Of a stretch of DNA of 56,144 nucleotides, positions 11,399-33,551 are shown one piece after another. The notes below the pieces were generated by a model, which made no database searches, had not been told where the DNA came from, and saw only the letters and a list, made by a program, of their open reading frames with translations. This DNA is from Candidatus Dormiibacterota bacterium. GTDB taxonomy: Bacteria; Chloroflexota; Dormibacteria; Aeolococcales; Aeolococcaceae. The stretch's first letter is position 1. Every line of letters starts with the position of its first letter. Where the stretch lies: the NCBI GenBank assembly GCA_036495095.1, contig DASXNK010000025.1, positions 1 to 56,144 of the forward strand, given 5' to 3'. The translations under genes and the position numbers were made by a program.

Positions 11399-12610
11399 GT
11401 GAGCCAGGCCCAGCGCTTCCTCCTCCTCCTCGTCGGGCTCAGCGCCGCGGCGGTGCTGCTGCGCGCGGTCTCCCGCCGGGCCCGGGTGCCCTACGCGGTG
11501 GTGCTCGCCGCCGGGGGGATCGCCGTCGGGCTGATCCCGGGGGTGCCCCGGCAGGTGATCAGCCCCGACCTCATCCTGCTCGCCTTCGTGCCCGGCCTGG
11601 TGTTCCAGGCCAGCCTGACCCTGGACCTGGGGTCGCTGCGCCAGGTGCTGGTGCCGGTGGGGCTGCTCGCCAGCGCCGGGGTCGCCATCAACGTCGCGGT
11701 GATCGGCGGCCTCGCCCACCTGCTGCTGGGGCTGCGCCTCACCGACGCCATGCTCCTCGGCGCCGTGCTCGCCCCCACCGACCCGATCGCGGTGGTGTCG
11801 ATCCTCCGCCGCGGGAACGCCCCGGGGCGGCTCGCCGCCCTGCTCGAGGGCGAGAGCCTGCTCAACGACGGCACCGGCGTCGCCGTCTTCAGCGCGCTGC
11901 TGGTCTCGATCGGCTCCGGCGCCCCCACGGCGGGCGACGTGCTCGGCCGCTTCGCCCTCGAGACCGCGGGAGGCGCCGCCGTGGGCCTGGTGGTGGGCGC
12001 CCTCGGGGTGGCGCTGCTCCGCGCCTTCACCGAGCCTCAGGTCGAGATCCTGATCACCCTGGTGCTCGCGTACGGCGGCTACCTCGCCGCCGACCTCCTC
12101 GGGCTCTCCGGGATCATCGCCGTCGTCGCGGTGGGCATCGTCGTCGCCGGCACCGGCCGGCGGCTGCGCCTCCACGGCGAGGAGCTCACCGACTTCTGGG
12201 GGGTGCTCGCCTTCGTGCTCAACGCCATCCTCTTCCTGCTGGTGGGCACCGCCCTGCCCGCACACCGCCTCCTCGAGGCCGCCGGCATGGTGGTGGCGGC
12301 CTTCGGGCTGATGGTGGTGACCCGGGCGCTGCCGGTGTACGGCCTGCTGCTGCTCGCCGATCCCCGGGCACGGCGCGTCCCCTGGCGGTGGCGGCACCTG
12401 GCCTTCTGGGCGGGGCTGCGCGGTGCCCTCTCGGTGGCCCTGGCGCTCTCGCTCACCGGCAACCCCCGGGTCTCACCCCTGGTGCCCACCGTCGCCTACG
12501 GGGTGGTGGTGCTCTCCCTGCTGGTGCAGGGCGGGCTCGCCGGCGCCGTCGCCCGGCGGCTCGGCATCGGCGGGATCGACCGCGCCGACGCCGGCGGGGC
12601 GTCCCGCTGA
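11399..12610 (+). CDS. CPA1-family Na+/H+ antiporter
   Basis: 403 residues from the GTG at 11399, five bases after the symporter stop. Ten or more membrane helices. Diagnostic segments are LAPTDPIAVVSIL, LLEGESLLNDGTGVAVF (the ESLLNDG core of NhaP/NHE exchangers with the ion-binding Asp), LLGLSGIIAVVAVGIVVAG, and FWAGLRGALSVALALSL. CPA1 exchangers export Na+ for H+. As last gene of the kinase-regulator-DUF485-symporter run it may expel the Na+ brought in with acetate. That is an inference from context. Confidence 0.93.
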   Translation: MSQAQRFLLLLVGLSAAAVLLRAVSRRARVPYAVVLAAGGIAVGLIPGVPRQVISPDLILLAFVPGLVFQASLTLDLGSLRQVLVPVGLLASAGVAINVAVIGGLAHLLLGLRLTDAMLLGAVLAPTDPIAVVSILRRGNAPGRLAALLEGESLLNDGTGVAVFSALLVSIGSGAPTAGDVLGRFALETAGGAAVGLVVGALGVALLRAFTEPQVEILITLVLAYGGYLAADLLGLSGIIAVVAVGIVVAGTGRRLRLHGEELTDFWGVLAFVLNAILFLLVGTALPAHRLLEAAGMVVAAFGLMVVTRALPVYGLLLLADPRARRVPWRWRHLAFWAGLRGALSVALALSLTGNPRVSPLVPTVAYGVVVLSLLVQGGLAGAVARRLGIGGIDRADAGGASR

Positions 12611-12652
12611 GTCGCGGGACACCCCGGCCGGCGGGTGGGATGGTGGATCGGG

Positions 12653-12850
12653 TCAGGGAACCGTCTCGGTCTCGGTGACGGGCTCCTCGGCGCAGCGGTC
12701 GAGAAGCATCAGCCAGGCGGGAACGGTGAGGCTGGACGCCGCCGCCCTCACCGCCCGGCGGCACGCCAGGATGCGGCGCTGGTGCGCGGCACGCGCCAGC
12801 CGCTCCTGGTGGACCGCGTGCGCCAGCTCATGGTGCAGCAGCGGATGCAT
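12653..12850 (-). CDS. small protein of unknown function (65 aa)
   Basis: 65 residues from the ATG at 12850, with GGGAGA 8 bases upstream. The sequence is His/Ala/Arg-rich at the start (MHPLLHHELAHAVHQERL) with a short hydrophobic SSLTVPAWLMLL segment and an acidic end. HHELAHAVHQE resembles a HExxH-like metal site (HELAH), which is suggestive only. It is the last of three small minus-strand ORFs (26, 8 and 65 codons) downstream of a strong promoter and an attenuator-like terminator. It converges with the antiporter gene. No family recognised. Confidence 0.5.
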   Translation of the reverse strand: MHPLLHHELAHAVHQERLARAAHQRRILACRRAVRAAASSLTVPAWLMLLDRCAEEPVTETETVP

Positions 12851-12916
12851 GGTGGAATCTCCCGTGGTTGGACACACAGTGCCGGCATCGCATCGGCGAC
12901 GACGGCGACGACCTGG

Positions 12917-12943
12917 TCAGGACGCGAACACGCTCATCGGCAT
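12917..12943 (-). CDS. 8-residue ORF with near-perfect ribosome-binding site
   Basis: ATG at 12943 is preceded by GGAGGTGA (12958-12951) at 7-base spacing, one of the best Shine-Dalgarno sequences in the window, yet the frame ends after MPMSVFAS. It lies between the T-tract of a terminator hairpin and the 65-residue ORF, 66 bases before that start. Such a mini-ORF could be a leader peptide or keep ribosomes near the next gene. It could also be fortuitous. Confidence 0.35.
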   Translation of the reverse strand: MPMSVFAS

Positions 12944-12977
12944 CTCGGCTTCACCTCCGTTGAATCCGCTGACAACG

Positions 12978-13008
12978 AAAAAGGACCGGGCGGTGACCGC
13001 TCCGATCC
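12978..13008 (-). terminator. intrinsic terminator / attenuator candidate
   Basis: On the minus strand, 13008 to 12983 can fold into a GC-rich stem of 10-12 pairs with one bulged A, closing on a GGTCACC-type tip. It is followed at once by five T (12982-12978). This is the only hairpin with a clean T-tract that I found in the window. It lies 27 bases after the stop of the 26-residue ORF and before the next two small ORFs, the classic position of an attenuator. Confidence 0.6.
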
Positions 13009-13035
13009 TCGGTGAGCCGGACGAGAACGTATCGG

Positions 13036-13116
13036 CTACCGGGTCGGTGCGCAGCCTCCGCGCATGCGGAACCAGTCTCGAATGACGAGGACCGGCGTCC
13101 GATGGGACTGCACCAC
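13036..13116 (-). CDS. 26-residue ORF, leader peptide candidate
   Basis: GTG at 13116 (a second GTG follows directly) has AGAGGAGG ending 6 bases upstream. The frame ends with TAG after VVQSHRTPVLVIRDWFRM and eight more residues (RGGCAPTR). It is the first ORF after a consensus promoter (-35 at 13203, -10 at 13175) and is followed by a terminator hairpin. No run of one amino acid points to classic amino-acid attenuation; a small functional protein is equally possible. Confidence 0.4.
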   Translation of the reverse strand: MVQSHRTPVLVIRDWFRMRGGCAPTR

Positions 13117-13174
13117 GGGGGACCTCCTCTTCTGATCGTTCTGATCGCGGGCCACTCGCAGGGCGGCGGACGGG

Positions 13175-13203
13175 AGTGTATGGGCCTGCGCCGAAGCTGT
13201 CAA
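13175..13203 (-). promoter_or_regulatory. strong sigma-70-type promoter, minus strand
   Basis: TTGACA (13203-13198), 17-base spacer, TACACT (13180-13175). The -35 is a perfect consensus and the -10 matches 4 of 6 positions. Transcription should begin near 13168, about 40 bases before the strong ribosome-binding site of the 26-residue ORF. No larger gene on this strand would explain it. Confidence 0.65.
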
Positions 13204-13240
13204 CCGCAGCTGCAGGAATGTCACGAATCCGGGCGCACCC

Positions 13241-13305
13241 GCACCAGCCCTCGTCGTCGCCACTCCTTAAGCACCAGTCCTCGTCATCGCCACTCCTTAA
13301 GCACC
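13241..13305. repeat. 30-bp tandem repeat, two copies plus a partial third
   Basis: 13241-13270 and 13271-13300 differ at only 2 of 30 positions, and GCACC begins a third copy. Each unit contains the palindromic CTTAAG. The pair begins about 40 bases upstream of the -35 of the minus-strand promoter at 13203, a position suited to a regulator. Read on the minus strand, each unit also carries AAGGAG. Confidence 0.7.
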
Positions 13306-13410
13306 CGAACCGGCGCACAGAGGGCCGCACGTTTGCACAAGGAATGCGTACACCGCATGGCAACGTTGCAGATCGCGCCGCGCCGCTGCATCAACCGGGG
13401 CAGCGCGATG

Positions 13411-13439
13411 TTGTGCACAGACCATGACGCGGCCATAAC
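13411..13439 (+). promoter_or_regulatory. candidate promoter for the 13514 uORF / 13600 gene
   Basis: TTGTGC (13411-13416), 17-base spacer, CATAAC (13434-13439). Both hexamers are weak (3/6 and 4/6), but spacing is ideal and the region is visibly less GC-rich than coding DNA. The first ORF downstream begins at 13514. Confidence 0.35.
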
Positions 13440-13513
13440 CGGTGCCCGTGGTAGCCTGCTGATGCTCTGCAGACGGCGCAGAACGCCGCGCCGGTAACGG
13501 GGACGAACGACGA

Positions 13514-13603
13514 ATGACGCACACCTGGCGTGAGACGGCCGAATGCCTGCTCACCCACGCTCACGCGGCGCGCCTGCACCGGCGGCCCGCCGCGCCGAGA
13601 TGA
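13514..13603 (+). CDS. 29-residue upstream ORF coupled to the next gene
   Basis: The ATG at 13514 opens a 29-codon frame, MTHTWRETAECLLTHAHAAR followed by nine Arg/Pro/Ala-rich residues. Its TGA (13601-13603) overlaps the ATG at 13600 of the next gene (ATGA). Such overlaps mark translational coupling elsewhere in this window. The peptide looks like an amphipathic helix, not random sequence. It may be a leader or small partner protein, or the remnant of a frameshifted N-terminus of the following gene. Confidence 0.45.
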   Translation: MTHTWRETAECLLTHAHAARLHRRPAAPR

Positions 13604-14202
13604 GGGGGACTTCGATGATCGAGGACGAGCCCTGGTGGGAGGACGTGGTCGGCGACCTGGTCGAGATCCTGCTCGAGCTCGACGAGGTGGGATGCGCGCG
13701 CCGCACCCTCGACGTCTACTGCAGCACCCAGCGGGCGCAGCGCTGGCGGGTCGGTGCGACCGTCGAGCTGCGCTGCCGCGCCCTCCTCAGCGCCGCCGGC
13801 GGTGATCTGCCCGGCGCCCTGGGCCAGCTCGACGCCGCCGTCGCCGGCCTCGACGACGCCTGGACGATCGACCTCGGCCGCGCGCTCCTCGCCCGCGGCA
13901 GCCTGCTGCGCCTGCTCGGGCGCACCTGGGAGGCCCGCTTCGACCTCAAGCGCGCCCTGGCGATCTTCACCCGCCACGGCCTCACCAGCTGGCGCTCCGC
14001 GGTGCTGCGTGCGCTGATCGGCACCGTCGACGCCGAGCCCGCCCCCGGCGTGTCCCCCGATCCCGCGCGCATCGTCGCCGAGCTCACCGGCGGCCACTGG
14101 TCCGACCACGAGATCGCCGCCCGCCTGCAGCTGTCCCTGCTCGCCGTTGAGCGCGAGCTCGGAGTGCCCTCGCTCGGGCTCCCCGTCGCCGAGTCGCTCT
14201 GA
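13600..14202 (+). CDS. TPR-like protein with degenerate LuxR-type HTH
   Basis: 200 residues from the ATG at 13600, which overlaps the uORF stop; an ATG at 13615 with AGGGGG upstream is an alternative. Residues about 20-150 are alpha-helical with Ala/Leu-rich repeats (GALGQLDAAVAGLDDAW, ALLARGSLLRLLGR, ARFDLKRALAIFTRHG) like TPR units. The C-terminus, AELTGGHWSDHEIAARLQLS and onward, follows the LuxR/GerE helix-turn-helix pattern, including the EIA-x-RL-x-LS core. It resembles the tail of large LuxR-family regulators reduced to a small protein. DNA binding is an inference. It converges with aceE. Confidence 0.7.
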   Translation: MRGTSMIEDEPWWEDVVGDLVEILLELDEVGCARRTLDVYCSTQRAQRWRVGATVELRCRALLSAAGGDLPGALGQLDAAVAGLDDAWTIDLGRALLARGSLLRLLGRTWEARFDLKRALAIFTRHGLTSWRSAVLRALIGTVDAEPAPGVSPDPARIVAELTGGHWSDHEIAARLQLSLLAVERELGVPSLGLPVAESL

Positions 14203-20980: not shown

Positions 20981-21009
20981 ACTCTACGAAGGCGCCCGGC
21001 GGTTGTCAA
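20981..21009 (-). promoter_or_regulatory. consensus promoter of the rhodanese gene, leaderless
   Basis: TTGACA (21009-21004), 17-base spacer, TAGAGT (20986-20981), then 7 bases to the ATG. Both hexamers and spacing are near ideal, and transcription would start at or within a base of the ATG. A second TTGACT lies further upstream. Confidence 0.75.
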
Positions 21010-21046
21010 ACTATCTGGATCGGGTTAGTCAACAATCGGGGTCGGG

Positions 21047-22123
21047 TCAGCCGGTGGGGAGGCTGAACCAGAAGTGGGCCGAGCCGGGTCGCGCCTCGGC
21101 GCCCACCCGTCCTCCCGCCCCCTCGACCAGCTGCTTGACGATGGCGAGGCCGATCCCGGCGCCGCCGCGGGCCCGGTCGCGCGATTTCTCGACCCGGTAG
21201 AAGCGCTCGAAGAGGTGGGGCAGGTCGGCGGCGGGGATGCCCTCGCCGGAGGCGGTGGTGTTGGCCACCCGCACCACCGCGTGGCCCTCCTCGAGCCCGG
21301 CGCCGACGGTGGCCCGCCCCCCCTCGGGGGTGTAGCGGAGCGCGTTCTGGAGCAGGTTGGCGAGCACCTGGGCGAGCTGGTCGGGGTGGGCTCGGACCAC
21401 CAGCCGGGCGGGGAGGTCGACCTCGAGGTCGATCCCGGCGCGCTGGAAGCCGGGCTGGTAGAGCTCGACCGCGGCGCGCACCGCCTGGGCGAGGTCGGCG
21501 TCGACCGGCCGCAGCGAGCGACCGGCGTCGCCCTCGGCGAGGACGTCGAGCGAGCGCGAGAGCCGCACCAGCCGGTCGGCCTCCTCGTGGAGCGAGGTGA
21601 AGGTCTCGGCGCTGGGCGGGATCACCTCGTCGCGCAGCGCCTCGAGGTAGCCCTTGAGGTTGGTGAGCGGGGTGCGGAGCTCGTGGGCGGTGTTGGCGAT
21701 GAGCTCGCGGCGCATCCGCTCCTGCTCCTCGAGGCTCTCGGCCATGCGGTTGAAGGCCTCGGCGATGGCCCGCGCCTCCTCGATCCCCACGTCGGGCACC
21801 CGGGCCGCATAGTCGCCGCCGGCGATGCGCCGGGCCGCCTCGACGATGCGCCCGAAGGAGCGCGCCACGCCGTGGGCGAGGACGCCGGCGACGACCACGC
21901 AGACCACCGCGGCGGCGAGCAGCGCCCAGACGAAGGTGTGCCCGATCGAGGAGTTGAACATCGCCCGCGAGTCGGCGGCGGAGGCGCCGTGGCGCAGCAT
22001 CAGGTCGTCGAAGGTGGAGCGGCCGACGTCGAACACCCCGGTGGCGATGATCGTGACCGCCACCGCGGTCACCAGCAGCGAGGCCAGCGCCAGCCGGACG
22101 GCGATCCGCCGCGGCCGGATCAC
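21047..22123 (-). CDS. BaeS/PhoR-type sensor histidine kinase
   Basis: 358 residues. Helices at about 8-30 and 66-88 enclose a short extracytoplasmic loop of about 35 residues, then HAMP (about 88-138), HisKA with TAHELRTPLTN (H147), and an ATPase with NLLQNALRYTPEGG, LFERFYRVEKSRDR and GIGLAIVKQLVEGAGG. The usual DxGxGI box reads VANTTASGEGIPAAD, with Asn in place of Asp as in some BaeS relatives and three extra residues. The tiny sensor loop suggests sensing at the membrane. It overlaps the regulator gene by 4 bases. Confidence 0.94.
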   Translation of the reverse strand: MIRPRRIAVRLALASLLVTAVAVTIIATGVFDVGRSTFDDLMLRHGASAADSRAMFNSSIGHTFVWALLAAAVVCVVVAGVLAHGVARSFGRIVEAARRIAGGDYAARVPDVGIEEARAIAEAFNRMAESLEEQERMRRELIANTAHELRTPLTNLKGYLEALRDEVIPPSAETFTSLHEEADRLVRLSRSLDVLAEGDAGRSLRPVDADLAQAVRAAVELYQPGFQRAGIDLEVDLPARLVVRAHPDQLAQVLANLLQNALRYTPEGGRATVGAGLEEGHAVVRVANTTASGEGIPAADLPHLFERFYRVEKSRDRARGGAGIGLAIVKQLVEGAGGRVGAEARPGSAHFWFSLPTG

Positions 22124-33484: not shown

Positions 33485-33551
33485 CCGTCCCGAGGACGGT
33501 ACCACTGCCCCCCCTCTCGGGGCGTCTCCTCGCTATCGGAGGCGCCCCTTT
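33485..33551 (+). terminator. two hairpins upstream of dusB; second is terminator-like
   Basis: CCGTCC-CGA-GGACGG (33485-33499) is a small stem. 33519-33529 pairs with 33538-33548 (11 bp, one G-U) around TCGCTATC, followed by TTTCTC. A transcript from the 33447 promoter would meet these within 70 bases, so they could form an attenuator for dusB or end a short RNA. Confidence 0.5.

Follow-up and report, generated by a model that had tools for sequence, protein, structure and literature searches.

Here we describe a minus-strand unit of short open reading frames (ORFs) that may best be explained as a lineage-specific small-protein gene controlled by an attenuator composed of upstream ORFs (uORFs) and an intrinsic terminator, a reading to which we assign a probability of roughly 40%. 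The unit lies in a 4.4-Mb draft genome, on contig G000:C25; this contig, 56,144 nucleotides long with a GC content of 74%, is the window analysed here. The individual signals of the unit are mostly real, and from them we infer its transcription, uORF translation, conditional read-through and a sensed signal. The small ORFs are situated between an exchanger gene and a TPR-like gene, both encoded on the plus strand, and all elements listed in the initial annotation were read directly from the minus strand, each where it had been placed. The features of the locus are as follows:

13241..13305, minus strand: 30-bp direct repeat GGTGCTTAAGGAGTGGCGAYGACGAGGRCT, 2.2 copies with 94% matches, directly upstream of the promoter
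13203-13175, minus strand: putative sigma-70-type promoter TTGACA-N17-TACACT
13036..13116, minus strand: uORF 1, candidate leader peptide VVQSHRTPVLVIRDWFRMRGGCAPTR, 26 codons with a GTG start
12978..13010, minus strand: intrinsic-terminator-like hairpin and T5 (12982-12978), 25 nt past the uORF 1 stop
12917..12943, minus strand: uORF 2, MPMSVFAS, 8 codons, with the SD GGAGGTGA at 12958-12951 and 7 nt spacing
12653..12850, minus strand: gene for a 65-aa small protein, MHPLLHHELAHAV..., Arg/Ala/His-rich and basic
12590..12634, both strands: symmetric hairpin between the antiporter gene and the 65-aa gene
ending at 12610, plus strand: Na+/H+ exchanger (antiporter) gene, Pfam PF00999, converging on the 65-aa gene
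starting at 13615, plus strand: TPR-like gene, the other flank of the unit
beyond the TPR-like gene, minus strand: pyruvate dehydrogenase E1 gene

Of the ORFs in the unit, the 65-codon one is the most likely to be the regulated gene. Its GC content by codon position (0.79/0.52/0.89) resembles that of the window's genes, and it obtains +25.3 bits (z 5.4 relative to composition shuffles) from a codon model for which 30 long ORFs of the window served as the training set. None of 1000 dinucleotide shuffles of 12640-13340 produced an ORF of at least 50 codons with an equal score, the 95th percentile being -10 bits. The earlier description of a unit driving only tiny ORFs was therefore an understatement: no large gene lies downstream, as had been noted, but a coding-like gene for a 65-aa protein does. 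Two other frames, a longer 75-aa ORF beginning with GTG at 13263 and a 148-aa open frame, were rejected as non-coding (-22 and -121 bits, respectively).

The promoter matches the consensus at 10 of 12 bases, and 0.2 sites of such quality are expected in 12-20 kb. Genome-wide, the pattern TTGACA-N16-18-TANNNT occurs at 27 sites against 1 for a reversed control pattern, so that the consensus appears to be used by this organism and the site at 13203-13175 is probably a real promoter, from which transcription would start near 13168. Among the genome's 27 strong promoters, it is the only one with a T5 hairpin close downstream and SD-preceded short ORFs. The adjoining 30-bp repeat is a possible candidate for a regulator-binding repeat. 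The initial annotation had called promoter and terminator much better matches than elsewhere in the window, which does not hold for the promoter, since an equal score of 10/12 is reached by TTGACA-N17-TAGAGT at 21009-20981 on the minus strand. At that second site (20981-21047, minus strand), the promoter coincides in part with a 22-bp tandem repeat, in which its TTGACA-containing stretch is duplicated. Elsewhere in the genome, two strong promoters (G000:C14:49376 and G000:C26:7138; L126 and L132) share a near-identical palindromic spacer, GTGACCATATGGTCAC, which is probably an operator for one regulator.

Ribosome-binding sites are strong in both uORFs, but their intrinsic coding signal is slight. 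For uORF 1 the site is AGGAGG (13128-13123), spaced by 6 nt, and this motif taken alone has 62 occurrences on the two strands of the window. The codon scores (-3.6 bits, z 2.15, which is weak, for uORF 1; +3.6 bits, z 2.5, for uORF 2) come from ORFs too short for such scores to decide. The SD of uORF 2 is predicted to be mostly paired, with an unpaired probability of 0.09 that is reached by 8.5% of shuffles, and this predicted pairing is mildly unusual and only suggestive. No single amino acid has a run of regulatory codons in uORF 1, the R-x-R motif of its peptide recurs when that peptide is shuffled (60% of shuffles), and a search for stalling motifs returned chance-level signals only.

The structure that follows uORF 1 is by far the best hairpin-plus-T-run of the window in a scan of hairpins before T runs. 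Its predicted energy (13010-12981; -21.0 kcal/mol) compares with -11.4 on average for shuffled sequences (z -3.6), and none of 200 shuffles was as good. Another strong GC hairpin, with a weaker T-rich tail, was found at 33519-33548 on the plus strand; a separate automated terminator scan listed that hairpin and left the one at 13010-12978 unlisted, probably owing to its bulge. The full leader is predicted to fold only slightly more stably than its shuffled versions (z -1.2), and comparison with shuffles revealed no antiterminator pairing beyond chance in it, the longest helix able to compete with the 5' arm of the terminator being 7 against a shuffle mean of 6.9. Chance-level antiterminator pairing, and a strong terminator placed directly after a complete SD-ORF-stop unit, would both fit a region made up of two units, in which a transcript of ~190 nt (13168-12978) is always terminated and yields the 26-aa peptide or a small RNA, while the 65-aa gene depends on a weak promoter or on leakage. 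We regard this arrangement as credible but doubtful, given that a consensus scan of this strand finds no second promoter in the interval from terminator to 65-aa gene, that the coding statistics of the 26-codon ORF are weak, and that Rfam 15 gave no match above gathering score within the window. No tRNA genes were found within the window either.

Under the attenuator reading, the housekeeping-type promoter at 13203-13175 would produce a transcript with a leader of ~320 nt, in which a 26-codon uORF is translated, an intrinsic terminator comes directly behind it, and the 8-codon uORF follows. The bulk of transcription would end at the terminator (12978), whereas slowed translation of uORF 1, or failed initiation there, would allow read-through and hence expression of the 65-aa basic helical protein. 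The read-through transcript would in turn end at the strong hairpin that the unit has in common with the converging antiporter gene. This hairpin (12590..12634) has a predicted energy of about -48 kcal/mol on either strand, with 0 shuffles as good, and has no T run; it could be a possible transcription end from both sides. The arrangement noted at the outset as that of a leader-peptide attenuator is present, with a promoter, an SD-preceded short ORF, and an intrinsic terminator that separates this ORF from a codirectional downstream gene, and both the promoter and the terminator-like hairpin are above chance. If true, this reading would extend the set of small-protein genes restrained by a uORF attenuator to include an orphan. 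Attenuation is a known kind of switch, and the unit alone leaves the picture of attenuation unchanged.

Several known systems offer partial parallels. A functionally close precedent comes from Sinorhizobium meliloti, in which a small DUF1127 gene is subject to premature termination between a uORF and the gene, which is relieved by translation inhibitors; that termination is probably Rho-dependent and occurs without an intrinsic terminator (PMC12218461). The unit described here resembles the DUF1127 leader in having a short uORF and a termination point before a small regulated gene, here as predicted from the sequence, and differs from it in its intrinsic terminator-like hairpin with T5 and in a 65-aa protein that falls outside Pfam DUF1127. 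With leader-peptide attenuators of amino-acid operons (trp/his/leu type) it shares the order of its elements, from the promoter through SD, short ORF and terminator hairpin to the downstream gene; unlike them, it has no regulatory amino-acid run, no antiterminator beyond chance and no downstream biosynthetic gene. The Escherichia coli toiL-topAI system contains an antibiotic-sensing uORF, toiL, which acts via occlusion of the ribosome-binding site (RBS) and Rho (PMC12121999). A short uORF, a predicted paired RBS of the next ORF and a possible ribosome-stalling response are features in common with toiL-topAI and with erm-type leaders, although the present unit has neither a downstream resistance or toxin-antitoxin gene nor a stalling motif beyond chance.

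For the predicted product of the 65-codon ORF, a structure prediction from the single sequence gave helices at residues 3-36 and 43-55 (pLDDT 81), and no fold match was found for this two-helix model. Profile searches against Pfam, NCBIfam and PHROGs returned nothing above cut-off. DUF4381, the sole hmmscan match of the 65-aa protein (E 0.049), was dismissed as below its cut-off, and matches to ribosomal protein S4-like sequences most likely reflect a common basic helical composition. DUF1127 proteins are Arg-rich; hmmscan with E up to 1 gave no match between Pfam DUF1127 and the 65-aa protein.

Comparison with relatives places the unit in a single genome. The only other member of the genus with the locus, G002 (contig G002:C214), has the antiporter end, the upstream region, and the TPR and dehydrogenase genes in identical order, with 81% DNA identity at the antiporter end and 72-73% (~215 bp) in the region upstream of the plus-strand operon. 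Missing from the G002 locus are ~720 bp (12616-13339), in place of which stand 56 unrelated bases. One of the two genomes therefore carries the whole unit, from promoter to 65-aa gene with uORFs and terminator included, and the other lacks it, a difference that may reflect gain or loss. Homologues of the 65-aa protein were found neither among 110 genomes of the class nor in phages, plasmids and viral contigs, and a pattern-based search of the GTDB contig collection, which detects close relatives only, also returned none; the DNA of the unit has no relative in 301 genomes of the phylum. A weak class-level match in G067 (E 1e-3) was dismissed, the matching stretch being antisense to a long gene of reductase-like type, and kinship with the 93-aa neighbour protein of G002 was discarded as the two proteins gave no alignment. 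Conservation in relatives, which had been proposed as a check, thus gave a negative result and could be shown for neither the ORFs nor the hairpin: the unit is absent from the sole syntenic relative and unique in all searches.

A mobile element or multi-copy cassette was likewise rejected, the segment being present in a single genomic copy without target duplication; its two ends share no words of at least 6 bases. A phage or plasmid origin was set aside on the strength of the 65-aa protein, which matches nothing in the phages, plasmids and viral contigs searched. The non-coding part of the unit has a GC content of 0.65 as compared with 0.66 in the conserved neighbouring intergenic DNA, so composition gives no hint of foreign origin.

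This equality of GC, the absence of the segment from the syntenic relative, a protein without relatives, and a neighbouring plus-strand small ORF whose length is visibly in flux (29 codons against 93 in G002) would all be in keeping with an orphan intergenic region that is decaying or has arisen recently, its promoter and hairpin being relics or products of chance, the short ORFs noise, and the 65-aa ORF a fading gene or proto-gene. We consider this rather unlikely, as the controls are clearly exceeded by the promoter, by the terminator and by the coding bias, which is unusual for decayed DNA. Its patchy presence, together with a strong promoter ahead of ORFs for small basic peptides, might also mark the unit as a toxin-like peptide or toxin-antitoxin module whose active agent is one of the two longer products (26 or 65 aa). 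No specific evidence was found for such a module or for a regulatory RNA, both raised in the initial annotation, and the toxin explanation appears very improbable: the family databases gave nothing above cut-off, the consensus scan found no antisense promoter facing the ORFs, the 65-aa model consists of two helices that match no fold, and the 26-aa peptide is Arg-rich and without a clear membrane helix.

If the small-protein attenuator reading holds, the two genomes would form a clean presence/absence pair for studying the joint origin or loss of a gene and its RNA switch. A more specific version, which we think unlikely, is that an orphan small gene has newly arisen in this little-sampled high-GC lineage together with a complete uORF-plus-intrinsic-terminator attenuator, as a cassette of ~720 bp; were this true, such a switch could come and go as one piece between conserved neighbours.

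The plus-strand side of the locus also yielded observations of its own. The upstream region at 13340-13510 holds a GCAACGTTGC palindrome and ACCATGACGCGGYCATAACC, and is probably the promoter and operator for the small ORF/TPR operon. This operon starts with the 29-codon ORF MTHTWRETAECLLTHAHAARLHRRPAAPR at 13514-13603, preceding the TPR gene, the first ~22 residues of which ORF align with the start of the 93-codon ORF at the same position in G002; judged from this alignment, the 29-codon ORF looks truncated in the present genome. In G002, the TPR-like gene (L056, G002:C214:2592-3127) is split over two frames, with residues 2-53 and 54-194 matched, which suggests a frameshift or an assembly error.
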